Below, piece after piece: positions 7,773 through 63,442 of a stretch of DNA of 64,000 nt. The notes under the pieces are model-generated. The model did no database searches, had not been told where the DNA came from, and was given only the letters and a program-made list of their open reading frames with translations. How positions within the stretch are numbered: position 1 is the stretch's first letter; each line of letters starts with the position of its first letter. Position numbers and translations under genes: made by a program. The stretch is from Hemerocallis citrina (Eukaryota > Streptophyta > Magnoliopsida > Asparagales > Asphodelaceae): positions 85,074,730 to 85,138,729 of the forward strand of contig CM030363.1 of the NCBI GenBank assembly GCA_017893485.1, written 5' to 3'.

Positions 7773-8840
7773 GCAGCAAACGGCATTCGAAAGCCTCAAA
7801 GAGCACCTCACCCATCCTCCCATCTTAAGCAAGCCTAACCCTCTACCTTTACCTGGCCGCCTCCGAGCAAACCCTATGTGTTGTATTAGTAAGAAAAAAA
7901 GATCAGGTACATAAGCCGATTTACTATATAAGCAAGGTACTCCATGACGCCGAACTCCGATATTCGAAGATGATGAAGATGGCCTATACCCTAGTAACTG
8001 CCGCCCAAAAACTCAGACCCTACTTTCAAGCACATTCCATCGGGTCCTCACCGACCAGCCTCTCAAACAGGTCCTTCACAAACCTGAGAGATCGGGGATA
8101 CTAATGAAGTGGTCGATCGAGCTAAGCCAGCATGACATTACATACCACCCCAGAACCGCAATTAAGGGCCAAGCCTCAGCCAAATTCATTGTCGAAAGTA
8201 CGGCCCTCGATCCTCCCCAGTAAGGAGAGAACCCCCTACTATGGCTAGTATACGTGGATGGGTCCTCTTGCCTTGAAGGGAGCGAAGCTGGGGTGATCTT
8301 AACCGGTCCCAACGAATTCATCCTACAATACTCACTTTGCCTCGGATTTCCAGCCTCCAACAATGAGGCCGAGTATGAAGCACTAATTGCTGGTCTCCTC
8401 CTGGCAAAAAGGGCGGGAGCACGAAGAGTCGGAGTATTCAGTGACTCTCAATTAGTGGTAAACCAGATCCATGGAGAATACAAGGCAAGGGATGACCGTA
8501 TGGCCAAGTACTTGGCATATGTAAAGGAGATCATGGCCGCCTTCAAGGAGATCATGGCCACCTTCGAAGAAAACGGGCTAGCAGACTCCCTTTCTAAACT
8601 TGCCTCCTCGTCGCTTGACGGGCTCGACCGTACTGTACTGATTGAAGTTCTACTCAAACCAAGTATCGAAGAAGACGCTTTGGAGCTCATGCCTATAACC
8701 CCTCAATTCCCTGAAGATTGCTGAATGAAGTCCCTTGTCGATTTCCTCGACAAAGGAATCCTCCCTGTGGATATCAAAAATTCAAGAAGAATCCGGGTGA
8801 GAGCCGAAAGATATGTACTTATAGAAGGGGTCCTTTATAA
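7773..8840 (+). pseudogene. C pol: RNase H and archaeal-type RNase H remnants
   Basis: The first 460 bp translate in shifting frames to the RT-linked RNase H region (FESLKEHLTHPPILSKP, then a block like KMAYTLVTAAQKLRPYF), with several stops. From about 8240 an open stretch gives the second RNase H: VYVDGSS, NNEAEYEALIAG, FSDSQLVVNQIHGEYKARDDRM and ADSLSKLASSSL. That shows the four acidic positions D, E, D, D of an active aRNase H fold. The block KEIMA is duplicated and the stretch before ADSLSKL is shortened relative to element A. A stop lies at 8722-8724. The additional archaeal-type RNase H is a known hallmark of the Tat clade. Confidence 0.88.
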
Positions 8841-10002
8841 GCGCTCCTACACCCAGACTGATGGTTGACCTTACCTTCGGTGCCTTTCTTCCGAAGAGGC
8901 CGACTACGCCCTGAAGGAATTACATGAAGGGATAGGTGGTAGCCACCTCGGAGCATGGTCCCTTGCGCAGAAGGTACTCAATCATGGTTACTATTGGCCC
9001 ACTCTTCTAAGTGATGTTCAAGCTTATGTCTGCCAATGTATTCCCTGTCAAAAGAACTCTACAATCAAGCGGACCCCTTAAGCCTACCTTAGTTCCCTGT
9101 CAAGTCCCATACCATTTGCAATATGGGGAATGGATCTCCTCGGACATTTTCCTCTTGCGATTGGATAGCGGACCTTCCTAGTGGTCGCTATTGACTACTT
9201 CACAAAGTGGATAGAAGCTGAACCACTAACGACAATTACCAAGCATAGAATCCAACAGTTCTTCTGGAGTAACGTGGTCTGTCGATTCGAGATCCCTCGC
9301 ATCCTGGTCACCAATAATGGAACACAATTTGCTGGTAAAGGGTTCTAAAAGTTTTGCACCGACCTGAGTATTGAGCAGTGATTCTCTTCAGTATCACATC
9401 CTCAAACCAATGGTCTAGCTGAGAATGCCAATCGACAAATCTTGGATGGTCTCAAGAGAATGATTAATGAAGCCCCAAAGGGACAATGGGTTGAAGTACC
9501 CCCTAGTGTGCTTTAGTCCTACAGGACCACAAAGAGAATCCCCACAGGAATATCCCCATTCAACCTGACGTTCGGCACAGAAGCACTTATTCCTCTTGAA
9601 GTGGGAATACCCTCTCCTCGCCTTCTCTCGTTTGATGAAGAACAAAACTCAAATGGAATCCGAGCCAATCTTGATCTCCTCGAAGAAATCCGGGAGATGT
9701 CCCTTGTTCGAAGAAACATATATCAACAGAGGGTGGAGAAATTCTACAATAAGAGAGTTCGCCCGACCAATATCCAGGAAGGAGACTTGGTACTCCAGAA
9801 GCTAGAGATTTCAAACCCTCGAAAGAAAGGGAAACTCGCCCCAAATTGGGAAGGACCCTACAAAGTCTCACAAGTAATCTGCCCAGGAGCTAGCAGACTT
9901 GAAGACTTGGGGGGGAAGATAATACCCAGGACCTGGAATGCTGAGAACATCATGAAGTACCAGGAGAGCGCTTACACACCATCGCTTAGTAGTTATAAGT
10001 GA
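8841..10002 (+). pseudogene. C integrase, degenerate
   Basis: Integrase read through several in-frame stops (for example near 8867, 9079, 9167, 9346 and 9514). Visible are the LYKRSYTQ lead-in, a Cys pair in YVCQCIPCQKNS, WGMDLLG with the first catalytic Asp, VVAIDYFTKWIEAEPL, and SHPQTNGLAENANRQIL with the Glu. The second catalytic Asp is replaced: VTNNGTQF is found where A has ITDNGTQF. The C-terminal region (9600-10002) is open and ends RTWNAENIMKYQES before its stop, matching the end of integrase in A (RTWNADHLLKYQE). Confidence 0.9.
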
Positions 10003-10082
10003 ATATGTAATAAAGACCGACACTTAATAACGGTCACACCATGTAATAAAGGCTCGCAGTAAAGGAGCCATCTAGTTTATTC

Positions 10083-10088: not shown

Positions 10089-10204
10089 ATCAGTCTTTTA
10101 TTTTTTTCTGCAAAGTTATGTGTAACTAACAGATTCAACACTATGTGTATAAGCCCACATGGGAAATCCCTCGTGCAACATCATCTACCCAACTACAACA
10201 CTTT

Positions 10205-11150: not shown

Positions 11151-11239
11151 AACCACAAAATCAGAAAGACGCAATTAACAGAAACATTGCTCAAATACTC
11201 AGGAGATCTTATTTTTTAAGAAGAATTCAGATTACGAGT

Positions 11240-11245
11240 TTTATT
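11240..11245 (-). terminator. Antisense poly(A) signal, element C accessory gene
   Basis: AATAAA on the minus strand, about 210 bp past the accessory gene stop. The stretch before it contains a GGAGCGTCCC block that is also found after the stop in element A, so the 3' untranslated region is recognisably shared. Confidence 0.5.
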
Positions 11246-11454
11246 GAGATGCAAGCTCCTACAAAAATCACAAGGATCTCCCTAACTCTTTCTAGAAAGA
11301 GGGACGCTCCTGTTGAGAGATATGTGCGGCCGACGAGTGCTATGCCGTTCTCTCGACCCCCTTGAAGAAATTTCTAGACCCGCAAGCCAAGTCGTACCAT
11401 CAAGGCGCATTGTTCTAGTGGCCCCTCCAATCGATGCCCAGCTAGACGAACCAG

Positions 11455-12599
11455 CTACTCCGCTCTGAGCGTCCCCTGGGACTCGCGGGACTTCGGGCAA
11501 ATGGAGAGCAACTCATGAAATGATCTTCCTTGGGCATGCTCCTCTCGCGAGCATGACGTGCTCCTGACGTTACCACCATCAAGAAGCCTCTTCAATCTGT
11601 GAACTTCCATCTCTAGCTTAACTATTCTGTCTTGAGAATTGTCTTTCACCTTGAACTTCAAACGAGGCACACTTCCAGCGGAAAATTCGAGAATTGTCTT
11701 CCTAAGATGGGCGACCTCCATGCTCCTCTCAAGCAGTACATTCTTTAACCCATCTCTTTCAGTGGTAGCTGAAAGTAAGCAGTGGCGGAGGAGCTTAACC
11801 CGTGAATACTCTTTGGTAGTTGCCTCCCCCAAAGAACCATCTTCTACCCCAATAGGAGGTACCTCTCGCGATACCTCATCATTGCACCGCTATGCTATAT
11901 CTCGCCGAGATAACACTCTTCTCAATTGGCTGAGTTCCGCTTCAATTTTTGAAAGACTTTCCCAAGACTGAGTCAGTCCCAACTTAGTAATGCAGAGCTT
12001 GGAACAAAACTGGGACGTCCCGCTGTCCTGAGAAACATGAGTATGATGCATGGCGCAACCTGCCGACCAAAGAAAAGTAGGGTAAAACACTCTAAGAGTT
12101 ATCGTAAAAAAAATCATGGGGAGAGAGACTTCAACAAGTACATCAAATTTTTAAAGCGAAACGCAAAAATAGCCAAATTTTCATTGAGTTAAAAGATGAA
12201 GCTACAACGAGCGGTGGCTAGTTCGCGGTTTGGCAAATAAATAACAAAAAAAAGAGAGACAAACAACGCTAACTACGAAAGAAGTAAACAGAGAAGTCAA
12301 GGGTCCACCTCGCTCGGCGGTGTCGTAGTAGTGGAAGACTCGCCCCCGCTTCTCCTCCAATCCCAGCACCGCCAACAACCGCAGCGAGGGGACCCACTTC
12401 AGCCTCCTCTTCCTCCAATTACTCCCCTTCTCCCTCTTCGGTCGGGGGAACAACGAATACCCCGAGCAGCTGGCTGAATCCCTAAGAAATCCATCATATC
12501 TCCTAACTTGCCAATCAGGAACATAGATCCTCTTCAGCTCGTCTGTCAAGATCGTCTCCGCTGTCACCGTAAGAGGAGGAGCCTCAAGAGATAAAGCCG

Positions 12600-12642
<43 letters not shown>

Positions 12643-13813
12643 CTCCCATAGCAGGGACAACTGAAGTAGCGGGGGCGGACACCAAATCCACCACAGGAGG
12701 GGCACCACCTACACTCCTAGCAGCCTTCGATGGCGAAGGTCTGACGACTAAACTTTTCCTCTTCTTCTCTTCGGCCCGCTTGTTGCTCAGGACCGAATGC
12801 CTAGACACGATATCATCAAAGTCCATGCCTGCGTCCTCTGTAAACAGAAGACAAAACATGTTAAAGAAATTACAAGACATGCGCAAACTAAATAATGAAG
12901 ATTAACATGAAGAACCCCCCCCCAAAGAGAATCTCCTCTGGGATCTCTTTCCAATGCAGCGTCGGTCGGTCCAAAAGAGTGCCAACCATCCTCTCCTCCC
13001 AGGGCTCAAAATAGGGTCTGCCTTCGCCCTCTTCAGCACATCCTCCCTCCATACAGTAGGGATACCCCACGGCTCCCGACTCCGAATCAAAAGTACTTGT
13101 CCCTCCAATACTTTACCGAGTCAGGATTGTCAACCAGCTTCACACCCTTGTAGGCAGTGAGATAGAATCGATACTCCGTTCAGGTCTTCTGATGAATCTT
13201 ATACAACATGCAAAGAACGTTGAGTCAGGCTCAATCCCCGCAGCTTGGCAATGAAGCACGAACCCCATAACGTGCCGCCATATGTTCGGCATGAGTTGGA
13301 TAGGACTGAGACCATACCACCTTAAGACCTCCCTGACAAAAGGGTGAAGAGCGAGACGAAGCCGTGCCTGAAAAGCATCGAAGGGAAACACACATAGGTC
13401 GGGGGAAAACGAAGAGCAAGATCTAACTCTGGGGCCAGGCTAAAAGAGATCAAACTCCGAGGGGATCATATAACCCCTCCAAATAGTGGCCAAGTCTGCC
13501 TCTGTGTGTATTGTGATGATGTCGTTCGTCTTGGAGCACTCTCGGGCCTCGTTTTCCTCATAAAACCTCTCCATGCCTTGTTCTACATGCCTCAACTCCT
13601 CGACGTCATACTGTCTAACGTCCCCAAATGCAACATGGCGATCGAATGCCTCCCGAACTCCCCCTTCCTCCAATCTCTCTCGACAATTGTCTCTACTACG
13701 AGCAAAGGCAGATGCTACACCCGTCCCTTTGTCCACTCTAGAAGAAGGAGTGGGAGAATGCACTTCGACGCGACCCGAGGGGAGGCATCATCACCAGAAG
13801 ATTTCCTAGACAT
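11455..13813 (-). pseudogene. C antisense accessory gene (plant gypsy-type transposon protein family), decayed
   Basis: A spliced gene opposite to pol, homologous to 52569-55575 in A. The start ATG at 13813 reads MSRKSSGDDAS, comparable to the MSR start in A, and follows a shared leader. Exon 1 contains LALHPFVREVLRWYGLSP and PNIWRHVMGF (13360-13240), the signature of the putative plant gypsy-type transposon protein family, then KLVDNPDSVKYWRDKY with frameshifts. Intron 1 ends at a TTTACAG acceptor, so exon 2 begins at 12837 (DAGMDFDDIVSR). Exon 2 holds a basic stretch and a GA microsatellite, then YVPDWQVRRYDGFLRDS. The coiled-coil exon of A is largely missing. The final exon (from 12027) reads QSWESLSKIEAELSQLRR and ends near NVRSTSCSREE. 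A stop near 11890 and several frameshifts make it a pseudogene. Confidence 0.8.
12602..12640. repeat. (GA)n microsatellite inside the C accessory gene
   Basis: About 19 GA dinucleotides in exon 2 of the antisense gene. Read in the gene's direction it encodes alternating Ser-Leu and probably broke the frame by slippage. Element A has no such run at the homologous place. Confidence 0.95.
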
Positions 13814-16401: not shown

Positions 16402-17769
16402 TGTTGATGCTTGGTTTTGATGACTACAACACAATACAAAGTTGTTCTACCAAATATCTCTTGCAGAGTGTATCAAAGTCAATACCATGGTGAAATACAC
16501 AAAGGAAACACAATTTGATGAAGCTTTCAAGAGTAATTGATCAAGCTTCAAGACATCAAGACAAAGGCTCAAGCTCAAGACAAAGAGTCAAGTTCAAGAC
16601 AAGATTCAAAGTGCTTGAAATGTTTAAACAAAGTATCTTGTAATATTGTATTTTTTTTCTTTGAGTCTTAGAAACTTGTAATAGCCTTGTCACACACACA
16701 CTCACACATACTTTAAATAATCTGAGTGTTTTACAAAATCAAAATGTTAAAACAAGCTTGAATAAGCTCAGCTGTATGAGTACCAGTCGACCGCTCCATG
16801 GAACCAGACAACTGTTATAGTATGAAACTACCCGAACTCATACAAGCTCTGGCCAGTCGACTCATTATGGCAACCCAGTCGTCTGTTTAAGCCGTTTCGA
16901 CAGTTTTCTAAATTTAAAACTTGTTTTTAAAATTCAAAACTTTTATATCCGTTTTATTACGGTTTATGGAACTATTTTACAACGTTCCTTGATTCTTACT
17001 GTATAAATAGAGTATAGGAATCATTTGGAATAGGTTCCAAGCATTCTTTAACTTTCAAGTCTTATGTTTTTAATAAGAACAAGTGTTTCAAAAGCATACA
17101 AATTCTCTGAGACTTGGTTCTCTGAAATTCAGTCTAATATAACATTGATTTCGTTTTAGACTGAATTCAGAAGTTGACCTAATAGCCACTATACAAAAGT
17201 ACTATCACATACATGGCTATAGGTTGTTGTAAACCCAATTTTTTTATTTTCACTCTCGGGTTGTGAGAGTGGTCCTCTCGGTTAGAGAGTAGGACTCTTG
17301 GTTTTAGAGTCGGTTTCACTCTAGGGTGTATAGTGGGTTTGATCTCTCTAGTGGTGAGAGAGGTCTACGGATTTGACATTGTTGTTGTCAAAAGTCGTAG
17401 AGTATTCTTGTACTTTTTCAAGAATAGTGAAAAATCTCAAGTGGATTGCTTGGGGACTGGATGTAAGTCGGGAGGACCGAACCAGGATACATCGTTGTGT
17501 TTGGCTGTAATTGACTCTCTGTGGTTGTATTCTCTCAAATTGCAATTTCAATTTCTCTGAGTTTTATTTCAAAAAATTGTCCAGTAAGTCGACTGATCAG
17601 ACTTGTAACTCTTCAGTAAAATACTTTTCTTATCTGATGCAACAGTCGACTGTATATCTATTTTCAGTCGATTTAACAGTACGAAAAGTTCAAGTTTTTA
17701 ATTAATTTTTATACAACACTATTCACCCCCCCCCTCTAGTGTTATCTGCCTTGCCTACAGGATCCAACA
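16402..17769 (+). repeat. CO1 5' LTR (1368 bp)
   Basis: Begins TGTTGATGC and ends GGATCCAACA, giving an inverted TGTTG/CAACA terminus two bases before the primer site. A TATA box (TATAAATA, 17002-17009) lies 600 bp in, with R-U5 following. The first 650 bp are repeated with about 95 percent identity by eye at 27716-28350. It contains at least four GTCGAC palindromes and variants. The open frame at 17333-17560 is not supported as a gene. Confidence 0.92.
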
Positions 17770-27328: not shown

Positions 27329-27715
27329 ACTTGATGTATTTTTTTTTATTTTCCACTATGTTTTATGTTTGTTATTTTTCTATCTTCTATTTGTAATCTG
27401 CAACAATGTACTTGATTTCTTATTTATAAATGTGTTATGGATATGCAATGTTGATTTTGTGTTTTATGATGTATCTTTCCTCATGTTTTTTGTTGATGAC
27501 AAAGGGGGAGAAAAATATGGTTTTGTGTTTTTTGTGTGTTTTTTGTGTGCATGTTTTATATATATTGTTATTATTTCACAATTGTGTGCATATTGTACAT
27601 TATTTAGGAGGAGCTTATCTCATATTTGTATATCTTTAAATTATGTGTGACATCTTGCTATGTATATTGTTATTATTATAAGTTATTGTGTTGTCATCAT
27701 CAAAAAGGAGGAGAA
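27329..27715 (+). promoter_or_regulatory. CO1 3' non-coding region and polypurine tract
   Basis: T-rich non-coding sequence. It contains a purine run GACAAAGGGGGAGAAAAA near 27500 and the true polypurine tract AAAAAGGAGGAGAA immediately before the LTR at 27716. The first run may be a second, internal tract. The open frames 27234-27650 are low-complexity. Confidence 0.65.
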
Positions 27716-28380
27716 TGTTGATTCTTGGTTTTGATGACTACAACACAATACAAAGTTGTTCTACCAAATATCTCTTGCAGAGTGTATCAAAGTCAATACC
27801 ATGGTGAAATATACAAAGGCAACACAATCTGATAAAGCTTTCAAAAGTAATTGATCAAGCTTCAAGACATCAAGACAAAGGCTCAAGCTCAAGACAAAGA
27901 CTCAATTTCAAGACAAGATTCAAAGTGCTTCAAATGTTTAAACAAAGTGTCTTGTAATATTGTATTTTTTCTTTGAGTCTTAGAAACTTATAATAGCCTT
28001 GTCACACACACACACTCACACATACTTTAAATAATCTGAGTGTTTTACAAAATCAAAATGTCAAAACAAGCTTGAATAAGCTCAGCTGTATGAGTACCAG
28101 TCGACCGCTCCTTGGAACTAGTCGACTGTTATAGTACGAAACTGCCTGGACTCATACAAGCTCTGGCCAGTCGACTTATTAAGGCAACCCAGTCGACTGT
28201 TCAAGTCGTTTCGACAGTTTTCTGAATTTAAAACTTGTTTTTCAAATTCAAAACTTTTATATCCATTTTATTACTGTTTATGGATTTACAACGTTCCTTG
28301 ATTCTTACTCTATAAATAAAGTATATGAATCATTTGGAAAATGTTCTAAGCATGAAACTATAATTAACTTTCAAGTCTTG
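27716..28380 (+). repeat. CO1 3' LTR, truncated and rearranged
   Basis: Matches the 5' LTR from its TGTTGAT start for about 650 bp, including the TATA box and GTCGAC sites. Near 28354, where the 5' LTR reads AAGCATTCTTTAACTTTC, the 3' copy has AAGCATGAAACTATAATTAACTTTC. The added piece is part of the fold-back unit that follows. The remaining 700 bp of LTR are absent as a block, but pieces reappear at 28632-28690 and 29046-29120. Confidence 0.85.
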
Positions 28381-48873: not shown

Positions 48874-49390
48874 TAATTTTTCCCTGTATAATTATAATCC
48901 AGCATATCAAACATTTAACAAAGATGTAGTAAAGATGTTACAGAAAACACAATCTTCAGACGCAAGTATTTGATAGCAATAAGGTCTACCTCATTACTAC
49001 ATATTTTAATATAAAGTTCACAATTGAATTGAAAGTAATATGTAGAAGGCAAATGATTAAAACTAATATATTAGACATTCTATTAAATTATGTGATCAAT
49101 TGCCTTTTTTTTTTAAATTTAAAAATAGTTTAAGCTCCCATTTTGGATTGCATTGTATTTTTTTTAATTTCTCATCATCATAACCATTTTAAAAAAATAT
49201 TTTTGTAATTAAACCCATCTTTCTGAATGTTTTTGTAATTAAAGAATAGAACATAAGAGAAGTGTATCTTAACAAAATAATTTGCAGATAGTTCAGTAGC
49301 GCAGTGGCTAATTTATCATAAGATTTCATAAATTGTACTACGTTTTATTGTGAAATACCTAGATTTGCAATTATTTATCTGTATACTTCC
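48874..49390. other. Unassigned AT-rich DNA left of element A
   Basis: Poly-T rich sequence without supported genes. It ends in the CTTCC target duplication of A (49386-49390). Confidence 0.5.
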
Positions 49391-49980
49391 TGTTGCCGCT
49401 AAATTTGGTGTGGGGGCAAACAGATAGTATTTGTGGATTCTTAGGAAAACTGAATAGTAAACCTGTATACCTGTTCCGTCGGAGTATGATCGTCGCTCCC
49501 GCCGCACACCTGCAAAAAGTGCGAGACACCGGGGTTGTTCCCGGCGACGCACCCTCCGACGCTCAAGTCAGTAATCTAGGAAGACTATGAAAGAGCACAA
49601 AAACTGGAGAAAGATTGATTACCTCTTAATGGAGATGGATGGGGGGTATTTATAGGCGTCTAAAGGGATCAAATTAGGCATGTAATTCCTGTGTATAGAT
49701 AAGGAATGTAATCCCTAATTCCCAGTGAAAGGATAGATATGAATCAGGGTCGTTGATTAATATTAATCAGAAACCCTAATTCTATCCTGCTGGACCGGGT
49801 TTGTTGCGGGTTGAAACCCGCACCCTGTTGAGGTGGATCTGTTCGCGGGTTAATGTGGGGAGGAGAACCCGTACCCGCTTCAGACCCGTTAGTAGGTGAA
49901 ATTACCGTTTTCCCCCTGGGCTTCAGGATTCGTGCCCAATTTGGACGGTCTCGATTAAACCCCCATTTTTAGCCATATTA
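49391..49980 (-). repeat. A 3' LTR (590 bp)
   Basis: Plus-strand start TGTTGCCGCTAAATTTGG, end AGCCATATTA. The element-side terminus, read on the coding strand, is TA instead of the TG seen in the 5' LTR, a one-base decay. TATA box on the minus strand at 49647-49654 (TATAAATA). It pairs with 62842-63437. Confidence 0.95.
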
Positions 49981-50429: not shown

Positions 50430-52235
50430 CTGGGCCTTTGATCAGTACGGAGCGAGAATTTCTGAGTGATCAGACGATCCCTGTTCCTAGGCAGACTTTT
50501 TCGCCATATACGAGGGTCGGCTCCTCGGCTCGGAGGATTGGCTCTTCGGTTCGGAAGGTTGGCTCCTCGGCTCGGAACCCTCCAAGGTACGTGGCATCAT
50601 CTGGGCTGCTCATCTCAGTGCAGATCTCCAAAAAATGCTATCTTGTCATTTAGTGGACGTGGCAAGATCTGGGCCGTTCATCATGACGAGCGCGCTTTTT
50701 TACAAGATCCAACGGCTGATATGGGTCGGCGTATTTTTTTCTCATCCCCTCGGCTCGGCCTTGTATCTTGTAAGATACGAGGGTCGGTTCTTCGGCTCCT
50801 CGGCTCGGAGGATTGGCTCCTCGGCTCGGAAGGTTGGCTCCTCGGCTCAGAACCCTCCGAGGTACGTGGCATCATCTGGGCCGCTCATCTTAGAGCGGAT
50901 CCCCAAAAAACGCTATCTTGTCGTTTAGTGGACGTGGCAAGATCTGGGCCGTCCATCATGATGAGCGCACTTTTTTACAAGATCTAATGGTTGAGGTAGG
51001 TCGGCGAGTTTTTTCGTCATATACGAGGGTCGGTTCCTCGTCCCCTCGGCTCGGAGTTGGCCGAGGCGCTGAGTTGGATATTTTGAAGGATGCGTCTCTT
51101 ATTGGTTCCACCTTTCCGAGCCCAGTAGCTCGGCTGCTCGGCCAAGCTGTTCGGTAGCTCAGTCAAGCAGGCCGATGGCAGGCAGTTTGGAAGGTGCACG
51201 TGGGCGGACCTGGTCCGTCCATCATGGTGCGAATCACGAGGATGGGGTTCACATCACGAGAAAACGTTATCTTGTCGTTTTGTGGGCGTGGCGCAATCTG
51301 AACCGTCCATCGAATTCTGATGCAAATTTTGGAGAGATCCGACGGCAAATTCGCCTCGGAAGGATTTTTCTCCATATACGAGGGTCGGTTCCTCGTCATC
51401 TCGGCTCGGGGGCTCAGTGACGTCGGCCGAGGTGTGGAGTCTTTAAAGAATGTCTTCTACTGATTCCACTCTTCCGAACCCAGTAGCTCGGCTGCTTGGC
51501 CAAGCTGTTCGGTAGCTCGGTTAAGCAGGCCGATGGCAGGCAGTTCGGAAGGTGCACGTGACCGAATCTGGTCCGTCCACCATGGTGCAAATCACGAGGA
51601 TGGGGTTCAGATCACGAGAAAATGCTATCTTGTCGTTTTGTGGGCGTGGCGCAATCTGAACCGTCCATCGAATTCTGACGCGAATTTTGGAGAGATCCGA
51701 CGGCAAATTCGCCTCGGAAGGATTTTTCTCCATATACGAGGGTCGGTTCCTTGTCATCTCGGCTCGGGGGCTCAGTGACGTCGGCCGAGGTGTGGAGTCT
51801 TTAAAGAATGTCTTCTACTGATTCCACTCTTCCGAACCCAGTAGCTCGGCTGCTCGGCCAAGCTGTTCGGTAGCTCGGTTAAGCAGGCCGATGGCAGGCA
51901 GTTCGGAAGGTGCACGTGGCCGGATCTGGTCCGTCCACCATGGTGCAAATCACGAGGATAGGGTTCAGATCACGAGAAAACGCTAACTTGTCGTTTTGTG
52001 GGCATGGCGCAATCTGAACCGTCCAACGAATTCTGACGCGAATTTTGGAGAGATCCGACAGCAAATTCGCCTCGGAAGGATTTTTCTCCATATACGAGGG
52101 TCGGTTCCTCATCATCTCGGCTCGGAAGCTCGGTGTCGTCAGCCGAGGTGTGGGGTTAGACGTTTCGAAGGGACTCAGTAGCTCGGTTGCTTAGCCAGGC
52201 TGTTCAATAGCTCGGCTTGGCAGACCGGTGGCCTG
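50430..52235 (+). repeat. Tandem array upstream of the antisense gene, 358-bp units
   Basis: Three near-identical units of exactly 358 bp start at about 51160, 51518 and 51876. Each contains GAAGGTGCACGTGG, AATCACGAGGAT, CTATCTTGTCGTTTTGTGGG and ends near CATATACGAGGGTCGG plus GCTCGG-rich text. Shorter degenerate versions of about 310 bp fill 50500-51080, with GGCTCCTCGGCTCGGA repeats. The repeated frames at spacing 358 are shadows. One more copy stands at 55930-56200 on the other side of the gene. Confidence 0.88.
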
Positions 52236-52355: not shown

Positions 52356-52363
52356 GTTATAAG
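52356..52363 (+). promoter_or_regulatory. TATA box of the antisense accessory gene in A
   Basis: GTTATAAG followed by a C/T-rich leader (TTTTCACTCTCCCACCC), 206 bp before the ATG. The leader blocks TTTCCGGCGAG and AATTCCGACCGTGA near 52495-52520 recur before the start codon in element C. Confidence 0.6.
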
Positions 52364-52568
52364 TTTTCACTCTCCCACCCCCAAGCTCATTTCTCACTTT
52401 TCACTCCAAAATTTCACTTTTACTCTGCGCTCTCTGCTAGCGGCGACTTTTGCTCCAAGGTGGTGACGCTAGCTGTCGCGTGGGCCAGGCAATTTCCGGC
52501 GAGCAAATTCCGACCGTGAACGTCACTTCAAAGGTCAGTCTACTAGCCTTAGCTTTTTTTCCCTTGAG

Positions 52569-55500
52569 ATGTCAAGAGTGAACTCGGGGAGTGGGGCCTC
52601 ATCTTCGGGCGATGATGGCGCCGAGGAGAGGAGAAGGGCAGAGATTCGAAGGAAGGGAAAACAAGTCGCCGAGCCGTCTGTGACCGAGGTGAGGAAGGAG
52701 AAGAAGAAGAGGAGGAGGGTAGCGGCCCAATCTGTCGTGGTCGAGGAGATCGTGGAAAACCTGAAGCAAGCACCCGAGATGGGACGGTATCCTTCTGTGT
52801 TGTCCGGGCATTCGGGGGTCAGGCAGTACGAAGGCGACCTCTTGGAGAAAGCAATCTTCGGAAAGTCGAAAGTCCTCGAAGAACCCAACCCGGCTCTTCC
52901 TACCGAAGCCGACGAGATTGCTTTGGTGCTATCCGAGAGGGATCTCCTTCAGATCAGAAAGGGATTTGCCATCCCTCCGGAGTACAAGCTGATGATCCCC
53001 GGCGCCGGGATGCGAGCGAATTCCAAGCTGTCATCGTCGGACATGTGCATGTTCGACTTCGACTCCTTGAATGCCGGACTGCATTTTCCGTTGCATCCTT
53101 TCGTTCTCCAGATCCTCGGGTGGTTCTGCCTCGCGCCGACCCAATTTATGCCGAACACGTGGCGTCATGTGAATGCTTTCCTGCTTCAAGTGCCGAAAAG
53201 CTGAAGTCGAGCCGGACCTAACGGTCTTCCGAGGCATGTATCGAATAAACCGGATGCACAAGACAGAGCATCGGTACTACTTGGGGCCGAGGAAGGGAGT
53301 TAGGATCATAGAAAACCCGGACTCAATTAAGGGTTGGAAAGAGAAGTTTTTTATATTAAGGGGGGAACCAATACTGCAAATTTCGACCCGGTGGAAACCG
53401 GAGGTGCCCAAGTTTGCGAGAGCTGACCCCGTACTGTCTGCGGCCGAGGAGGAGGTGGTGAGGAAGATCATGGCCTTCCCCTTGTTGAGTTGGAGGGAGT
53501 TGACGGAGGAGGTGCTGTTCGGCTCCGGCCTTAGCCCCATCGACCCGAGTATGCTCCTGACATCTCATTTATTTTCGTTTTTCTTTCAAGTCTTTAGCTC
53601 GTCTTGCTGACTCAGTTTTTGTCGTCTGATGCAGAAGCGATGAAGATCGATTTCAACGCCATGATGGCCGATAGGTCCAAATTGGCCAGGGGCAGGAAGA
53701 GGAAGAGGGCGAGCGTGGCTGCCTCGTCGGCTTCGCAGCCTAAGGCCGCTTCGGCTTCCTCTCCGCCTCCTCCGTCTACCGAGGCGCCTTTGGAGGTGGT
53801 TGTTGCCGAGGAGCCCTCGGTGCCTGAGGCCTCGGCCCCTGTTGACGGGACCTTTGATGTTAACGCGGCGCTGTCGCTCGAGGCTCCGAGGTTGACTGAG
53901 GCGGTCGAGGAATTCCTGACCGAGCAGCACAAGCAGCTGTACGTGCCGAACTGGCGGGTGAAGAATCACGACGGATTCCTCGGAAACTCGCAGATGTCGG
54001 TGCAGGTCGTCAAGCACCTGGCGACCCCGAAGGACAGAGCCGCACTGAAGGCGGGGACGGTCGGCGATGACACTTACGATGTGGCTCGGTCGCTCGTATC
54101 GGTAAGTTTCTCATTGCGAATTTCTTCAAGTTTACTGCTCGGCTTGTATATTGCGCTTACCGTTGTCTTCACAGGCTACTTGCCACTTCGGCCATCTTCT
54201 CGAGACGTTCGCCGAGCAGGAGAAGGAGCTGAAGGCCGCCAGCGACAAAGACAGGGCGGAGAAGGTCAAGGCGGTTTGGCAACTCGAGGCCGAGCAGAGG
54301 CGAGTCGAGGCCTTGGAGGTCCGGGTCACTGATCTTGAGGCCGACCTGGAAAGGACCAAGGGGCGACTTGATGCAGAGTCTGCCAAGGCTACGAAGGCCG
54401 CCGAGGAACTGGCCGCGTCGGCGAAGTCCCTGGCCGACCTGAAGGTGGAGAAGGAGGCGCTGGCCATGAAGATCAGGGCCGAAGTCGAGGTCGAGGCCGA
54501 GGCTGAGGCGAAGAAACACATGGCCAAGAACATGGAGATGTCCTATCAGAGGGCACTCGACCATGTTCAGGAACGTGTCCCCGGCTTCGAGCGGGTCGGC
54601 TACAGACTGTGGCCAGGGCCGCCTTCAGGTGGTGAGGAGGAGGGAGCCGAAGGCGACGAGGGGGAAGGCGATGACGAGGAGGAGGAGGCCGATCCTCCTG
54701 TGGCAGATCCCCAGGTCGAGGGGAGGAACGAGGGGCCACCTGGCGACGCGCCCGTGGTCGAAGTGGCGACGCAGGTGGACCCCTGATCCCCTCGTAAATT
54801 TTTGTAGTTTTTTGTTTTGTTTTTTTTAAAACAGTGTAATGCCTTTTGTGGACTGGCCACCGCTTTGATGAATGAAAAAAGTGTTTTGATTTCGGACTCG
54901 TCTGTCTAAGTGTTTGGTTCGGTCATGTAGTTCTTCAATGTTGTCTCTCTTTCATTTCAGATCGCCGAGCAGACTCGTATCACCGCGGCAGCTCGGCGCC
55001 GCGCGGAGTTATTTCAGCAGTCCTGGGAGGATCGTCTCGAGGGCGAGGTCCATCTGACGAGGAGAATACTTCATAATGTAGAGAGGAGGTACAGTAAGCT
55101 GTTGGTCGAGCTGCACCATCTGCGGATAGTCGAGGCCGAACTATCTGCGAAGGAGGAAGAGTTGGTCCGGGTTTCGGCCGAACGAGATGACTTCGCAAGG
55201 AGGGTAGAACAGTTGCAAAGGGTGACGGTCGACAAGAGCATCGAGGTGACCCACTTGTGCCGCGTTATATCTGGCAGTGCCGAGTATCCCGGTTCGGCGA
55301 AACTTCCTCGATTCAAAGTAATTGTGAAGGATGACACATTGAAGGACAGGATCGTCGAACTGGAGGAAGAGGTTGCTCGGCTCAAACCTCAGCCGGTGAG
55401 GGCCAATGTCCGGAGTACTTCGTGCACTCGCGAAGAGATTGAGCGAGGGATCACGTTCTATCAACTCGCGAGCCGAACCTCCACCGTCGGTCGGACAGCA

Positions 55501-55575
55501 GCCGACGCCCAAAGTGGAGTAGCGGTGTCCTCGAGTGGTGCTTCAGGTTGGAGCGACCGTCAGGGCCAGCGGTGA
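52569..55575 (+). CDS. Antisense accessory gene of A, four-exon model, plant gypsy-type transposon protein family
   Basis: Model: 52569-53548, 53635-54101, 54175-54774, 54961-55575. The introns have GT/AG ends, and the phases fit. Exon 1 has a basic KEKKKRRRV cluster and GLHFPLHPFVLQILGWFCLAP with PNTWRHV, the signature I associate with the putative plant gypsy-type transposon family (Pfam Transposase_28, from memory). A one-base shift near 53190 breaks exon 1. Exon 2 starts AMKIDFNAMMADRSK, has GRKRKRASV, and ends YVPNWRVKNHDGFLG and VARSLVS. Exon 3 is a long Glu/Ala/Lys coiled coil with an acidic tail; without the last splice it ends at 54786. Exon 4 has no Met and reads QSWEDRLEGEV to NVRSTSCTREE. 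A nuclear, self-associating protein is my inference; function is unknown. About 685 or 886 residues apart from the shift. Confidence 0.75.
53549..53634 (+). other. Intron 1 of the A accessory gene (86 bp)
   Basis: Donor GA/GTATGC, acceptor TGATGCAG/AAG, T-rich tract before the acceptor. Phase 1. Element C has an acceptor TTTACAG at the exactly corresponding codon, seven codons before the aligned Phe of K-I-D-F and G-M-D-F. Confidence 0.8.
54102..54174 (+). other. Intron 2 of the A accessory gene (73 bp)
   Basis: Consensus donor TCG/GTAAGT, acceptor TCTTCACAG/GCT, phase 0, frame kept across the junction. In C this intron and the coiled-coil exon lie in a deleted stretch. Confidence 0.85.
54775..54960 (+). 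other. Candidate intron 3 of the A accessory gene (186 bp)
   Basis: Donor GCAG/GTGGAC, acceptor TTTCATTTCAG/ATC, phase 0. If retained, translation stops 12 bp into it (54784-54786). In C the pair GAG/GTGGAC (12309/12308) and GTTTCTCAG/GAC (12028/12027) is at the same codons: 19 residues separate the junction from QSWE in both. The donor is weak, so retention may be frequent. Confidence 0.6.
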
Positions 55576-55766
55576 GGGGGCGTCTCGATTCGTTGGCCTA
55601 GAGACGAGCTCGGAGGTCAAGAAGCGCCGACCCAAGGTATCGCTGAACCGGAGCGTCCCCCTTCCGTGGAGGCAGTAAACGAGTCATGTTGTGTCTTTGG
55701 GCTTCCGAACTGTCTTCCGAACTGTCTTTTGTTGTAATCTTTTTGTAAATTTATCCATGTTGTATT

Positions 55767-55772
55767 AATAAA
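55767..55772 (+). terminator. Antisense poly(A) signal in A
   Basis: AATAAA about 190 bp after the stop, preceded by TTTTTGTAAATTTATCC. The 3' stretch shares a GGAGCGTCCC block with element C. Confidence 0.55.
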
Positions 55773-56205: not shown

Positions 56206-56880
56206 GAACGGCCATCCACTTCCGGCTCGCCCTTAGGCGAGCCGGGGAACTAAAGTCGAGCCAGAGGACTCCGATCCATCGTTAGGTTAGTTCAACGGTT
56301 GTGGGAGCAATTCCGAATGGCGAACTACTTCTAGCTCGCTTAGAAGCGAACTTGCGAAGTAGAATCGAGCCAAGTGTTGGACTCCGAACCATCGTTACTC
56401 CGAACCATCGTTAGATTAGTTCAACGGCTGTGGGAGCAATTCCGAATGGCGAACTACTTCTAGCTCGCTTAGAAGCGAACTTGAGAAGTAGAATCGAGCC
56501 AAGTGTTGGACTCCGAACCATCGTTAGATTAGTTCAACGGCTGTGGGAGCAAATTCGAATGGCGAACTACTTCTAGCTCGCTTAGAAGCAAACTTGCGAA
56601 GTAGAATCGAGCCAAGTGTTGGACTCCGAACCATCGTTAGATTAGTTCAACGGCTGTGGGAGCAATTTCGAATGGCGAGCTACTTCTAGCTCGCTTAGAA
56701 GCGAACTTGCGAAGTAGAATCGAGCCAAGTGTTGGACTCCAAACCATCGTTAGATTAGTTCAACGGCTGCGGTAGCAATTTCGAATGGCGAGCAACTTCT
56801 AGCTCGCTTAGAAGCGAACTTGCAAAGAAGAATCGAGCCAAGTATTGGACTCCGAACCATCGTTAGGTTGAAGAGTTAAG
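56206..56880. repeat. 113-bp tandem repeat x 5 after A pol
   Basis: Units start at GTTAG(A/G)TTAGTTCAACGG (56282, 56410, 56523, 56636 and 56749) and run through GGGAGCAATTCCGAATGGCGAA, CTTCTAGCTCGCTTAGAAGC and TTGGACTCCGAACCATC. Spacing is 113 bp except the first, which has an extra 15-bp duplication. Similar to the 115-bp unit of B and the 109-bp unit of C. Confidence 0.9.
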
Positions 56881-57036: not shown

Positions 57037-58130
57037 TTAGAGAGGCGTTGTTGTTCTCTCTTGGTATTTTAGGAGATGGTCGGCATTCCAAGTCCTGAGA
57101 ATCTCCCTACCTTCGAGATCTTCTAGTCTGTATGTGCCGGGACGGATTTCTTTAGAAATCTTGTAAGGTCCCTCCCAGTTCGGGGCCAATTTGCTTTTCT
57201 GACTTGGGAACGAGATGGCCAATTTTCGGAGGAGCAGGTCCCCTTCTTTGGGTCCGTTGGGCGGACTCTTTTGTTGTATGCTAGCTCGATCCTTCTTCGG
57301 TAAGTTTGCTGACGTATGGCAGCTCTCTCTCGGATTTCGTCTATCAAATCTAGACTTGCTCTGAGCTCTCTAGCGTTTTGCTCTTCTTCATAAGCTATCA
57401 AACGAGGAGAGGGTAACCCGACTTCTAGGGGGATGATGGCCTCGGACTCATAGGTGAGATTGAATGGGCTCTCACCCGTTGGGGTCCGCTTTGTAGTGCG
57501 GTAGTTCCACAACACGTTAGGAAGCTGATCGACCCACAAGCCTTTGGAACACTTGTCTAATCTCTTCTTAATACCAGAGAGGATCTGTCGGTTGGCATTT
57601 TCGGCATGGCCATTCGACTGAGGATGAGAGACGGAGGAGAACCGGTGTTGTATGGCGAGGTCTTCACATAAAGCTCGGAAGGTAGCGCCAGTGAATTGCG
57701 TTCCGTTGTCCGTAATTAAGGCCCTGGGGATGCCAAATCGGCAGATCACGCTCTTCCAGAAGAATTGAACGACCTTGTTTTCGGTGATCGTGGCCAGGGG
57801 CTCGGCCTCTATCCATTTCGAGAAATAGTCGATTGCCACGACTAGAAACTTAAGCTGTCCGGGGGCTGGCGGAAACGGCCCTAGTAAATCCATCCCCCAC
57901 ATTGTGAAGGGGATCGGACTTGATAGGGAAGTGAGTGGTGCTTATGGAAGGCGTCGGATGTCGGAGTACTTCTGACAGGAGCTGCATTGCCAAACGTGTC
58001 ATTCAGCGTCCCGTAGGAGAGTGGGCCAGAAATACCCGTAGTTCAACACTTTGCACGCTAGGGCTCTGGAACCGGAATGTGCCCCGCCGATGCCCTCATG
58101 AAGTTCTTGCAGGGCATAGTCGGCTTGCCC
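57037..58130 (-). pseudogene. A integrase
   Basis: Integrase in three frames. The zinc-finger part (58130-57910) follows a one-base shift in a C-run at about 58131-58135 and has two stops, TGA at 57999-58001 and TAA at 57942-57944; CSSCQK marks the Cys pair. The core from 57902 is open: WGMDLLGPF (Asp), VVAIDYFSKWIEAEPL, ITDNGTQFTG (Asp) and SHPQSNGHAENANRQIL (Glu), so all catalytic residues are present. A further one-base loss near 57250 shifts the C-terminus, which reads KLAPNWEGPYKI and RTWNADHLLKYQE, stop at 57037. The copy is inactive although the core is nearly perfect. Confidence 0.93.
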
Positions 58131-59297
58131 TGGGGGAGAGGCACCTCAGGTAGGGCCGACCGTCCACCTGGGTGAAGGAGCGTTTATATAGGATACCTCC
58201 GATTAGTGTGTAACGCTCGGCTCGGGTTCTAACCCTTCGCGCTTCCTTGGGATCCTCGGGGAGGAGTCCGTCCCTTAAAAATTCGATGAGGGGTTTCATC
58301 CAATTGTCTTCGAGGAGGACAGGCAATGTTTCTATAGAGTCGAGGGCTTCATCCTCTATGCTTGGCTTCAGAAGGACTTCTATCAAAACGGTCTGCTCAA
58401 GGCCTTGAAGGGAAGAGGAGGCTAATTTGGATAGGGCGTCGGCCTGAGCATTTTCTTCTCGGGGGATCCTTTGGATGAGGGCCTCTTCAAACAGTGCCAT
58501 TAGGCTTTTGACTTTGGCTAAGTATTTAACCATCCTGTCGTCGCGGGCTTTATACTCGCCGAGGACCTGATTGACGACTAGCTGAGAGTCGCTAAAGATC
58601 CGGAGGCACTGCGCCCCAGCATTTCGGGCCATTCCAAGACCGGCTATGAGCGCCTCGTATTCAGCTTCGTTGTTCGAGGCTTTGAAGTTTATACGGAGGG
58701 AGTATTGGAGGATGAAGTCATCTGGGCCTGTCAGAATGACTCCGGCCCCGCTTCCCTCATTGCAGGAGGATCCGTCAACATAAACTGACCAGACGGGTGG
58801 TCCCTTCACTGTTTGGCTGGATTCGGGGATAGTGCTCTCAACTATGAATTCGGCTAGCGCCTGAGCTTTGATCGCGGTCCAAGGCTGATAAGTTATATCG
58901 TGTTGGCTCAGCTCGATTGACCACTTCATAAGGCGACCCGAGGTCTCGGGCTTATGGAGGACCTGCTTCAGCGACTGGTCGGTAAGAACGACCACCGAAT
59001 GGGACTGAAAGTACGGGCGAAGCTTTCTCGCGGCCATGACCAGGGCATAGGCCATCTTTTCTATCTTCGGGTATCTAAGCTCGGCATCTCGAAGCACCTT
59101 ACTGACGTAGTAGATGGGCTTCTGAGTCCGGTCTTCCTCCCTTACTAAAACTGCACTGAGGGTCTGCTCGGAGGCTGCCAAGTAGAGGTAGAGGGGTTCA
59201 CCAGGGACCGGTTTGCTGAGGAGAGGGGAATTGACGAGGTAAGCCTTGAGCTGGTCGAAGGACTCCTGTTGCTGCTGCCCCCATTCGAAACCTTTAG
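58131..59297 (-). pseudogene. A RNase H plus archaeal-type RNase H
   Basis: Two tandem RNase H domains. The first (about 59230-58830) follows RT directly: YLAASEQTLSAVLVREED, KPIYYVSKVLRDAELRYPK and RKLRPYFQSHSVVVLTDQ. Its first catalytic Asp position is Ala (AAS, against DAS in TK1), suggesting an inactive domain. The second (about 58790-58430) has VYVDGSS, NNEAEYEALIAG, FSDSQLVVNQVLGEYKARDDRM and NAQADALSKLA, giving the full D-E-D-D set. Acquisition of an archaeal-type RNase H is known for the Tat clade. The frame is separated from RT by a single base in a seven-C run (59298-59304). Confidence 0.92.
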
Positions 59298-62200
59298 CCC
59301 CCCCTGAGGGCCTTGAAGAAAGGGAGGCATTTCTCCCCGGACTTCGAGAGAAAGCGCCCTATGGCGGCTAGGCGGCCTGTTAATCTCTGAACTTCTTTAA
59401 CATTTCTGGGAGGGGCCATGTCTAATATGGCCTTCATTTTCTCCGGGTTTGCTTCAATTCCTCGTCGGCTAACCATGAAGCCGAGGAACTTCCCCGAGGA
59501 GACTCCGAACGTGCACTTGTTTGGGTTGAGTCTCATATTGTGCTTTCTTAGAACGTCAAACGCCTCTTGGAGGTCGGTCGCATGATCAACGCCTCGAATG
59601 CTCTTCACAAGCATGTCGTCTACATACACCTCCATGTTCCGGCCAATCTGAGCCTGGAAAACCTTGTTGATGAGGCGTTGGTATGTAGCGCCTGCATTCT
59701 TCAGACCGAACGACATTACTCTGTAGCAATAGAGGCCCTGGTCGGTCACAAACGAGGTCTTCGGGATATCCGGAGGGTACATCCAGATCTGATTGTAGCC
59801 TGAAAAGGCATCCATGAAACTGAGGAGCTCATGTCCCGAGGTTGCGTCGATCAGAGTGTCAATACTCAGAAGAGGGAAGGGGTCTTTCGGGCAAGCCTTG
59901 TTGAGGTCGGTAAAGTCAATGCAAATCCTCCAAGTCCCATTGGACTTCTTCACCATTACTACATTTGACAACCACTCAGGATAGTTGACCTCCTGTATGA
60001 ACCGGGCCTTCAGGAGCTTGTCCACCTCCTCTTTGATAGCGAGCTGGCGCTCGGGGGCGAATTTGCGCCTCTTCTGCTGAACCGGTTTGGACCCCGGAAC
60101 AACGCTCAGGTGGTGGACCAGGAGCTCTTCGGGGATCCCAGGCATATCTGCAGCTGACCAAGCGAAGAGGTCTTCGTTCCTTCGGATGCATTGTACAATG
60201 TCTGAGCATAGGGCGGATGGGAAGGTCTTACTAACAAAGAATTTGCGGGTTGGGTCCTGCTCAGAGAAGAGCACTTCCTCCAATTCGTCCACCGGCTCGG
60301 AGGTCGGTCGAGCAGTATCTTGGGGGATTTCAAGAGTTTCCAAGGAGAGGACAGGCCCGAGGGTAGAGGTCATGTAGCACTTTTGGGCCGTCTCCTGATT
60401 GCCTCTTACTTCCCCTACTCCGGCCCGAGTGGGAAACTTCATTTTGAGATGGTAGGCAGAAGGGACGACTTCAAGGGCGGCTAGGCCGGGCCGGCCCAGA
60501 ATGACATTGTAGGCTGTTGGGACATCTACGACCATGAAATCCATCGACTCCGTTCGGGTAGTAGGAGTTTTTTTAGCGGTTACGTCGAGGGTAATCACCC
60601 CTTCAATAGTCACTGGCACTCCCGTGAACCCATGGAGCGTGTAACCGGCAGGCTTGAGTCTATCTCGAGAGAGCTTTAGGCCTTTGATAGCGGCGAGGAA
60701 GAGGATGTTTACGGAGCTGCAATTATCCACTAGGATCCTCTCCACTTTGAAATTCGCCATGTGAAGGCTAATGACGAGTGCGTCACAATGTGGGGTGCGA
60801 ACTCCTTCAAGATCTTCGTCGGAGAACGTGACAGGCACGCCGAGGCCTTTGGGAGGAGGGGTGGTTCGGACCGAGTTGACTTCTCTTATAAATGCCTTCC
60901 GAGAGGAGTTTGAGGAGCCCCCCATTGGGCCCCCATGAATGAGGTGGAGGACTTTCTCTTCCTCGAAGTCAGGCGTCTCTTCTCGTTCCGGACGCTTGTT
61001 AGCCCCCCGAGGTGGGGGAGGAAGTTCGGCTCGGTCCTTTCTTACAAACCTGGTCAGCTGCCCCCTCTGGATAAGGGCTTCTATCTCGTTCTTTAAAGCG
61101 CGACAATCGTTGGTGTCATGCCCATGGTCCCGGTGATAACGGCACCATTTTTCTTTATCTCTTTTCTTGGCGGGGGTGTTCATCCTCGGAGCAGGAGGTA
61201 AGATCTCTTCCTTTTCGACTTCCATCAGAATGGTTGAGACGTTAGTGGTGAGGGGAGTGAACTTCTCGAATCTGGGGGGAGGTCGGCGCTGGACGGCATT
61301 ATCCTTCTGGAGCTTCTTGGCTCCTTCCTCTTCTGTTCCCTTTCTCTTAAACCCGGAGGAAGACCCCTCCCAGTTGGGTCGATGCTCGGCCTCTTCGGCC
61401 CGGATGTACTTTTCACTGCGAAGGAGGAGGTCGGAAAAGTTCTGTGGAGGCTTCTTGGCGAGGGAGGAGCGGAGGTTGGAATTGAGGACATTAGATTGAA
61501 ATGCTGCCGCGGCAACCAACTGGTCGAGGGATGCTATGGACCTGGCTTCAGCTGTGAACCTCTTCACATAGTCTCTCAACTTCTCGCCCTTCTTCTGGTG
61601 GAGGTGCAGCAGCGAGATGCTGGTCTTCTCAGCTCTACGGCTGCTTACGAAATGGGTGAAGAAAAGGGTTTCGAACTGCTCGAAGGAGAATATTGAGGCG
61701 GGGGCAAGGCGGGAGTACCATTCTCGAGCTGGGCCCTTAAGAGTCGTGGGGAAGGTTTTGCAGAGGAGGGCATCGGAAGCTTGATGGAGGAGCATCAGGG
61801 TCTTAAAGCTTTCGATGTGATCAACGGGGTCAGTCTTCCCGGAGTAAGTCTCAAATTGAGGAGGCTTGAAGCCGATCGGTACAGGTGCATCCATTATGGT
61901 TCGTGAGAAAGGGGGTCTGCTAGGACGTAGGGTCCTCTCCCTAAGCTCTTCTTCTCGATCTATCTGGCCCAGGCGCCTCTCCACCTCATGAAGACGGCGG
62001 TACATAGTGTCGTCCCTCCGACGGTAATCAGCCGAGCCTCTAGACTCGTCTTCGTACGAGGGAGAGCGAGGGCTACGGCGACGATAACTTCGGGAGCGAC
62101 GAGGACTTGGAGTATGCCGGGAGTTGCTAGGAGCAGGAGGAGGAGATGGGGATCGTTGGTGAGGGCTTCGGACCGGAGGAGGAGAAGGGTTCTTGGGTGC

Positions 62201-62770
62201 ATTGTTGTTGGGACGGAGATTGAGGGCTTGAAGGACGGTCGCTTGGAACTGCTGGAACTCGGCACGAGTGATGGGTGCTTCATCGTTCCTAGGTTGTTGC
62301 TGACCTGCAGGGGAGTGTAGCCTTCTTCGGTAATGCTCGGGGGATTCTTTCCGCCCTCTTCGGATGGGGGACCTTCTGTACTCTCGGCGGCGAGGAGACC
62401 GCTCATCCGGACGGCACTGGCGGGAGGTTCCCTCTCGGGCCCGCTTTTCATCCAGATGACGGCGAAGGTCATCGTTCTTCTGTCGGTTGAGGGCGGTATT
62501 GTGGAGAGCAGAGGCTCGAGGATGATGGGAGGCCATTGAGTCCGAAGAGGCGTTGTGGATGGAGACGCGGTCCTGGTGAAGAGGTTGTTTCTGAAGGTTA
62601 GGACCTTTGGGATGTGGCTGATTTGGAGGAGGAAGGTCCTGTTGGAGCGGGTCTTCTGCCGGTGGAGGGAGTTGTCCTTGCTGTTGGGTAGGTTGGTTGG
62701 GAACTTCTTGCTGCTGATCGGGGTTTGGCCCTCTGTTGGACCCCCTCGATCTGATTTTCCTAGGAGGCAT
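59294..62770 (-). pseudogene. A gag-protease-RT reading frame (1158 codons)
   Basis: I start at the ATG of MPPRKIRSRG (62770), which aligns with the start in B; the open frame reaches 62791 only with TTG. Residue numbers here count from that upstream limit. Positions 1-290 are Pro/Arg/Ser-rich. Capsid (Retrotrans_gag type) spans about 300-475, with AREWYSRLAPASIFSFEQF. The zinc motif C550-x2-H-x4-H-x4-C563 is a CHHC variant. Protease is near 685-780 with LVDNCSSVNILF, active-site Gly replaced by Cys. RT runs about 905-1125 with RICIDFTDLNKA, FMDAFSGYNQI and catalytic YVDD at 1056. The frame ends at a one-base shift before RNase H, so gag to RT could still be translated but pol is cut. Confidence 0.93.
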
Positions 62771-62820
62771 GGCTGGAGAAGATCTGTTCAACGCGAAGAG
62801 GAAAGGTTTCTATTCGTTAG

Positions 62821-62841: not shown

Positions 62842-63437
62842 TGTTGCTGCTAAATTTGGTGTGTGGGCAAACAGATAGTATTTGTGGATTCTTAGGGAAA
62901 CTGAATAGTAAACCCTGTATACCTGTTCCGTCGGGGTATGATCGTCGCTCCCGCCGTACACCTGCAAAAAGTGCGAGACACCGGGGTTGTTCCCGGCGAC
63001 GCACCCTCCGATGCTCAAGTTAGTAATCTAGGAAGACTATGAAAGAGTGCAAAAACTGGAGAAAGATTGATTACCTCTTATTGGAGATGGATGGGGGGTA
63101 TTTATAGGCGTCTAAGGGATCAAATTAGGCATGTAATTCCTGTGTATAGATAAGGAATGTAATCCCTAATTCCCAGTGAAAGGATAGAGATGAATCAGGG
63201 CCGTTGATTAATATTAATTAGAAACCCTAATTCTATCCTGCTGGACCGGGTTTGTTGCGGGTTGAAACCCGCACCCAGTTGAGGTGGATCCATTCGCGGG
63301 TTAATGGTTCTTTGGGGAGGAGAACCAGTACCCGCTTCAGACCCGTTAGTAGGTGAAATTACCGTTTTACCCCTGCGCTTCAGGATTTGTGCCCAATTTG
63401 GACGGTCTCGATTAAACCCCCATTTTTAGCCATATCA
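62842..63437 (-). repeat. A 5' LTR (596 bp)
   Basis: Coding-strand start TGATATGGCTAAAAATGG, end GCAGCAACA. TATA box TATAAATA on the minus strand at 63099-63106. It carries a 6-bp insertion (GTTCTT-like) relative to the 3' LTR near 63306. Confidence 0.95.
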
Positions 63438-63442
63438 CTTCC

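Follow-up and report, generated by a model that had tools for sequence, protein, structure and literature searches.

Conserved introns and purifying selection in a predicted antisense TRP28 gene of a Retand-like retrotransposon from Hemerocallis citrina

A predicted intron-bearing gene on the antisense strand of a plant retrotransposon encodes a protein that, as comparison of its genomic copies shows, has been under purifying selection during multiplication of the element. The gene lies in element A, a Ty3/gypsy retrotransposon with gag-pol on the minus strand, within a 64,000-nt window of the Hemerocallis citrina genome (GCA_017893485.1, contig CM030363.1, positions 85,074,730-85,138,729 of the forward strand; window coordinates are used below). 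It runs opposite to gag-pol, on the plus strand of the interval between pol and the 3′ long terminal repeat (LTR). We consider it probable that this is an antisense TRP28 accessory gene of a Tat-clade, Retand-like element, with three exons and an additional exon 4, whose selected protein would be made from a spliced transcript and act as a nuclear regulator in trans.

Gene Model and Conserved Splice Sites

The gene model begins with a TATA-box-like TTATAAG (52357..52363), which aligns with TTATAAAT of a second copy in the window, in element C, and continues with a conserved leader block (52495..52535) that ends AAG|GTCAGT, its GT at 52534. Exon 1 (52569..53548) starts with an ATG at 52569 and encodes a basic N terminus and a TRP28 domain (Transposase_28, PF04195; residues 165-205). 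Intron 1 (53549..53634; 86 nt, GTATGC..TGCAG, phase 1) separates it from exon 2 (53635..54101), which has a Met in its second full codon and the basic cluster RKRKR; basic clusters thus lie in exons 1 and 2. After intron 2 (54102..54174; 73 nt, GTAAGT..CACAG, phase 0) comes exon 3 (54175..54786), with a heptad-like, coiled-coil-like stretch, an acidic tail, and a stop at 54786. Neither intron length is divisible by three. Exon 4 (54961..55678) follows the acceptor TTTCATTTCAG in phase 0 and encodes a second coiled-coil-like segment and a conserved C terminus containing ..SLNRSVPL..; a poly(A)-signal-like AATAAA is found at 55767..55772. Both introns are supported by their GT..AG ends, by alignment of A-family copies, and by other families, exon 2 by both sets of alignments, and exon 3 by the A-family alignment. 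The first-pass annotation of this DNA had described the same anatomy, from TATA box to poly(A) signal, and every part of it was located on the plus strand. It had also drawn 52356..55772 as one multi-exon gene opposite pol: the opposition of strands holds, whereas the gene sits downstream of pol instead of overlapping it, and exons 1-3 end at their own stop ahead of the extra exon that starts at 54961. We infer the transcript, promoter, and splicing from these sequence features.

The partial TRP28 domain of A scores 29.5 bits against PF04195 (gathering cut-off 26.2), and two other genomic copies reach 50.3 and 65.2 bits. In the 3.78-Gb assembly, a first look gave 41,509 PF04195 candidates, and all 150 that were scored exceed the cut-off. 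The reading frames of A itself break at about 53185 in exon 1, within the TRP28 domain, and near 55545 in exon 4. Length of open reading frame (ORF) was rejected as evidence for a gene, being within chance (an ORF of at least 211 codons arises in 16/200 dinucleotide shuffles); the signals that do exceed chance are the coding pattern of differences and the splice sites.

These splice sites are strongly conserved among close relatives of A. A DNA search with the antisense gene gave 9,310 candidates, and the 40 that were scored are, A itself aside, 91-95% identical to A. In an alignment of A with the 29 best copies, the ATG and TTATAA are retained in 30/30 sequences and intron lengths of 86 and 73 nt are unchanged in 30/30, with GT..AG present in 29/30 for intron 1 and 29/30 for intron 2; the leader GT is likewise kept in 29/30. 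Removal of both introns leaves a frame of about 685 codons, uninterrupted between the ATG and the final stop, in 10 of the 30 sequences; in one of these 10 the acceptor of intron 2 is mutated. Retaining either intron alone, or both, leaves the frame open in none of the 30. Exon 4 has a 238-codon frame that is open in 12/30 sequences, 9 of which lack a Met, and its translation therefore probably depends on a start further upstream. The exon 4 acceptor has the same phase 0 as the exon 2 donor, and exons 1-2-4 together are open in 5/30, which suggests alternative products.

An earlier proposal, that antisense orientation shields the introns, fits these data: both introns occur in 30/30 sequences, and the sense RNA shows no GT..AG at these sites. 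The introns would be retained because the sense genomic RNA shows no splice sites there and is therefore reverse transcribed faithfully, introns included.

The layout recurs in other families. Eight further loci (L001-L008), whose exon 1 protein is 28-47% identical to that of A, were compared. The GT and AG of intron 1 are where expected, and in the expected phase, in L002, L003, L005, L007, and L008; L006 keeps the GTATGC donor with an ambiguous acceptor (GCAAGAG), L004 has lost the donor GT and has an ambiguous acceptor, and intron 1 was not found in L001 by comparison with A. Intron 2 lies at the same place with a GTAAGT donor in L001, L005, L006, L007, and L008 and with GTATGT in L004; in L002 and L003, neither intron 2 nor a match to exon 3 was seen. 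In all five flanks examined (L007, L008, L006, L001, and L004), an exon 4 homologue shares the strand of the antisense gene, and integrase, RNase H, and reverse transcriptase (RT) lie on the opposite one, as is gag where the flank reached it. Exon 4 has a readable start in one other family (L080), again with a phase 0 acceptor. Beyond this genome, a protein database yielded only 6 distant plant homologues of the antisense protein, and scans of IMG/VR for relatives confirmed nothing.

Element C holds a decayed copy of the gene on the minus strand (11282..13813), recognized by homology to A, with its ATG at 13813, the intron 1 acceptor at 12839-12838, a ..VDP stop at 12299-12297, and an exon 4 homologue at about 11970-11282. 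Its own pol, with RNase H and integrase region at 7853..9783, is on the plus strand. The claim that C carries the same gene, antisense to its pol and with the intron 1 acceptor at the same position and in the same phase (phase 1) as in A, is borne out, but the gene is not intact: exon 1 has an in-frame stop and frame breaks, and in the comparison with A the intron 1 donor is not recognizable and exon 3 has no match. Across an alignment of 296 codons, differences between A and C affect 47, 32, and 67% of codon positions 1, 2, and 3, respectively, a third-position excess reached in 0/5000 permutations; the proportions of synonymous and nonsynonymous differences are 0.81 and 0.38, with synonymous divergence saturated. 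A (TC)n run at about 12640-12600 in the exon 2 homologue of C is perhaps a sign of decay, and just past the end of the gene lie tandem repeats of about 217 bp (10313-11090). Conservation of promoter, splice sites, and protein, as first claimed for A and C, holds in part: the A family retains the splice sites, TATA box, and leader, other families share the splice sites and leader, and A and C themselves are not intact.

The leader block is the strongest match between A and C among the noncoding stretches compared (z 9.9; about 13875-13836 in C), and a block ending AGGT[CA]A occurs in A, C, and all of L001-L008. In a simple frequency-based ranking, its GT has the best mean donor score in the region. 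It lies only about 33 nt ahead of the ATG, and a short intron from this donor to an acceptor before the ATG was rejected as likely too short. The donor may instead serve an isoform that skips exon 1, and a Met is found close to the start of exon 2 in A, C, and most other families compared. A structure model of the L007 exon 1 protein is confident over residues 117-321, of which the TRP28 Pfam model spans about one-third. Neither Foldseek nor VIA-align returned a significant PDB relative of the modeled domain, and we therefore claim no function from its fold. Tentatively, a single promoter may give at least three spliced products (TRP28 spliced to exon 3 or, alternatively, to exon 4, and leader spliced to exon 2 without TRP28), with a domain of about 205 residues that is perhaps a fold new to the PDB. 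If so, these elements would have kept, over long periods, a regulatory gene with introns and several isoforms by sheltering it on the strand that does not undergo reverse transcription as spliced RNA.

Purifying Selection on the Predicted Protein

We compared nonsynonymous and synonymous variants (N/S) over 683 codons of the 30 A-family sequences, using only biallelic sites readable in at least 25 rows and splitting them by the number of copies with the rarer base; the copies are related to one another. Singletons are mostly changes that followed insertion, and variants in at least four copies are inherited through copying. Singletons have N/S of 293/131 = 2.24 (neutral expectation 2.25-2.7), variants in 2-3 copies 100/103, and variants in at least four copies 38/80 = 0.47 (P = 1e-12 vs. 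singletons, Fisher's exact test). At the same sites the two wrong frames move in the opposite direction (N/S 4.3 and 5.2). A dN/dS near 1 across copies had been named beforehand as the outcome that would speak against selection for the product, and the contrast between 0.47 and 2.24 instead upholds it.

Variants in at least four copies fall 35, 22, and 102 times on codon positions 1, 2, and 3, or 0.051, 0.032, and 0.149 per site, compared with 0.163 in intron 1, 0.082 in intron 2, 0.049 in the leader, and 0.085 in the interval between exons 3 and 4. By these per-site rates of shared variants, the introns are freer to vary than codon positions 1 and 2, intron 2 being less so than position 3. 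We also retrieved 20 stretches at the estimated offset of pol, of which 17 matched the pol of A and 14, together with A, were suitable (13 rows for RT and 11 for RNase H). The pol pieces have N/S of 26/50 for variants shared by at least two copies and 62/47 for single ones, and for the antisense ORF, read in the 13 sequences used with RT, the counts are 64/114 and 199/140. The similarity of the two patterns indicates that constraint within the family is similar. Exon 4 shows N/S of 17/24 shared and 123/56 single in the 30 sequences (P = 0.002).

A second family (L007/L005; 21 sequences, with the wrongly trimmed L057 left out) agrees. Exon 1 is open in 19/21, intron 1 is 76 nt long with GT..AG in 21/21, and N/S is 9/23 for variants shared by at least two copies vs. 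55/44 for single ones (P = 0.008); the two wrong frames give no significant difference (P = 0.36 and 0.24). The 40 scored matches of this family are 96-100% identical, and it is apparently younger than the family of A.

Element A and Its Neighbors

Element A is a bounded insertion flanked by LTRs and a 5-bp target-site duplication, CTTCC, at 49386..49390 on the left and 63438..63442 on the right. On the minus strand lie the 3′ LTR (49391..49980, 590 bp) and the 5′ LTR (62842..63437, 596 bp), which differ by a Kimura two-parameter distance of 0.0366 over 589 aligned sites, for an insertion age of about 1.4-2.8 million years at assumed rates of 1.3e-8 and 6.5e-9. Its gag, RT, two RNase H-type domains, and integrase occupy three minus-strand frames: a gag-RT frame (59294..62791; Pfam Retrotrans_gag and RVT_1), an RNase H region (58096..59181; PF17917 at residues 3-93 and PF13456 at residues 141-253), and an integrase core (57123..57902; Pfam rve). 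Two tandem arrays bracket the antisense gene, one of 358 bp (×2.9) upstream of it at 51106..52153 and one of 113 bp (×4.2) between it and pol at 56397..56866.

By domains, layout, and sizes, we classify element A as Tat-clade and Retand-like. A second, additional RNase H after the RT-RNase H is a Tat-clade feature, and in A the two RNase H-type domains stand at separate places. As in Retand elements, an antisense ORF with PF04195 above its cut-off lies opposite to pol in the interval between pol and the 3′ LTR. The internal region (12,861 bp) and both LTRs fall within the ranges given for Retand in the available text of a survey (7,380-12,869 and 315-1,194 bp; PMC11963269). The region from pol to the 3′ LTR, which contains the two tandem arrays, is 7,143 bp long and so slightly above the observed 2,933-6,566 bp (PMC11963269); A is still called Retand-like because this is a survey range and not a definition.

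Other retroelement remains are present in the window. A third gag-region fragment (47475-45230, minus strand) is 34-61% identical to the protein of A, with no TRP28 match for it in the window. An RT region at 2638-1829 (minus strand), only 31% identical to that of A, is probably from another retrotransposon lineage, and direct repeats at 16400-17044 and 27714-28353 (93% identical, 11.3 kb apart) are likely LTRs of another element.

Alternative Explanations and Known Systems

Under the preferred explanation, an RNA polymerase II transcript would start inside the element, proceed toward pol, and be spliced to encode a nuclear protein, which would combine basic clusters, a coiled coil, and an acidic tail with a folded domain of about 205 residues and could end in either exon 3 or exon 4. 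By analogy, this protein would act in trans on the expression of its own element or on its nuclear steps; retroviral antisense and accessory proteins regulate their own elements. The protein could instead serve nuclear import or integration of element DNA, an alternative that we regard as rather unlikely. The basic clusters are suggestive of nuclear localization, the GENE23 protein of Grande is described as nuclear in the available text of PMC7264820, and constraint within the family is of pol-like strength. The evidence here does not separate this role from regulation, but between families the antisense protein diverges much faster (exons 1-2 36-47% identical to A in L005, L007, and L008) than pol (84-87% in L007 and L008), unlike a partner of the core enzymes. 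Less likely again is that the antisense RNA matters and not the protein, through pairing with genomic RNA to tune silencing or retrotransposition. Retroelement antisense RNAs act so elsewhere, for example in Ty1 (PMC12786077, available text), such a role is raised in the available text of PMC7264820, and the leader is kept between families with few shared variants (0.049 per site). A role of the RNA alone does not predict selection on amino acids, seen here in the concentration of shared variants at codon position 3 (102 vs. 35 and 22), although RNA and protein roles could coexist.

That the gene is a captured host gene or functionless passenger fragment, decaying since its capture, accords with the broken state of both A and C; it is very improbable given constraint during copying in two families, the same layout at 5/5 other loci, and the published occurrence of such ORFs in 97% of Retand clusters (PMC11963269). 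Open frames and splice sites arising as chance features of GC-rich sequence would account for the ORF length, which shuffles reproduce (16/200), but conserved introns, frame-specific selection, and Pfam matches refute this reading, to which we give almost no credence. Several observations do weigh against a regulatory antisense gene as modeled. Both window copies carry broken frames, and because of this the window alone could not prove function. The junction of exons 2 and 3 was recognized in 0/6 database homologues in a 40-residue test against shuffles, and the structure model lends DNA binding no support. The sole acceptor-like site seen ahead of exon 4 in C would be in phase 1, with an in-frame Met after it, so that exon 4 could be a separate unit there. 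The exon 4 selection test is not significant in 13 sequences (P = 0.22), and transversions alone are few, with N/S of 74/12 single and 12/5 shared, in the same direction as the full set.

The kind of gene was expected to be known, and antisense TRP28 ORFs of Retand bear this out, whereas the gene model, with two conserved introns, a possible alternative 3′ exon, and a conserved leader donor, was provisionally not found in print. Judged by titles and the starts of abstracts, no paper describes introns in an antisense TRP28 gene; novelty is provisional because subscription journals are largely missing from the literature search. In the available main text of PMC11963269, "intron" does not occur and "splic" occurs only in one reference title; that of PMC7264820 has no occurrence of "intron" and calls for study of antisense and spliced transcripts. 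As far as their available text goes, PMC3091746 and PMC5599236 have no bearing on the antisense gene. Most young Retand elements of flowering plants carry antisense TRP28 genes. A protein selected during copying and readable only after splicing provides a gene model for cloning, localization, and binding tests, and annotation of antisense TRP28 ORFs is affected because ORF finders truncate the gene at exon 1.

The closest known counterparts are the Retand TRP28 ORFs, reported in the available text of the survey as antisense, lacking in only two of 63 clusters, and predicted to bind DNA (PMC11963269). A shares with them the position between pol and the 3′ LTR, the antisense strand, PF04195, further antisense ORFs, and tandem arrays (PMC11963269), and adds to what the survey lists two introns whose position and phase are conserved, an in-phase exon 4, and evidence that the protein is selected. 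Maize Grande gene23, likened here from descriptions and not from sequence, is also an antisense accessory gene in a long 3′ internal region, nuclear and transcribed in antisense from its own promoter (PMC7264820 and PMC11963269, available text). Layout alone recalls HBZ of human T-cell leukemia virus type 1 (HTLV-1), which is an antisense, spliced gene for a nuclear protein with basic and coiled-coil parts. HTLV-1 antisense transcripts begin in the 3′ LTR (PMC1459196, available text), unlike A, where the TATA-like site lies in the internal region. Plant LTR elements are generally intron-free, with Ogre and EVADE as notable exceptions (PMC12786077, available text). A resembles Ogre (Steinbauerova 2008, cited in PMC12786077) in being a plant LTR element with predicted introns.

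HBZ is a bZIP antisense protein that represses sense transcription, and the gene in A is similar to it in anatomy only. The introns of Ogre lie in its sense transcript, whereas those of A are on the antisense strand. The gene in A offers a clean case of putative spliceosomal introns that survive in a retroelement, with orientation as the simplest reason.

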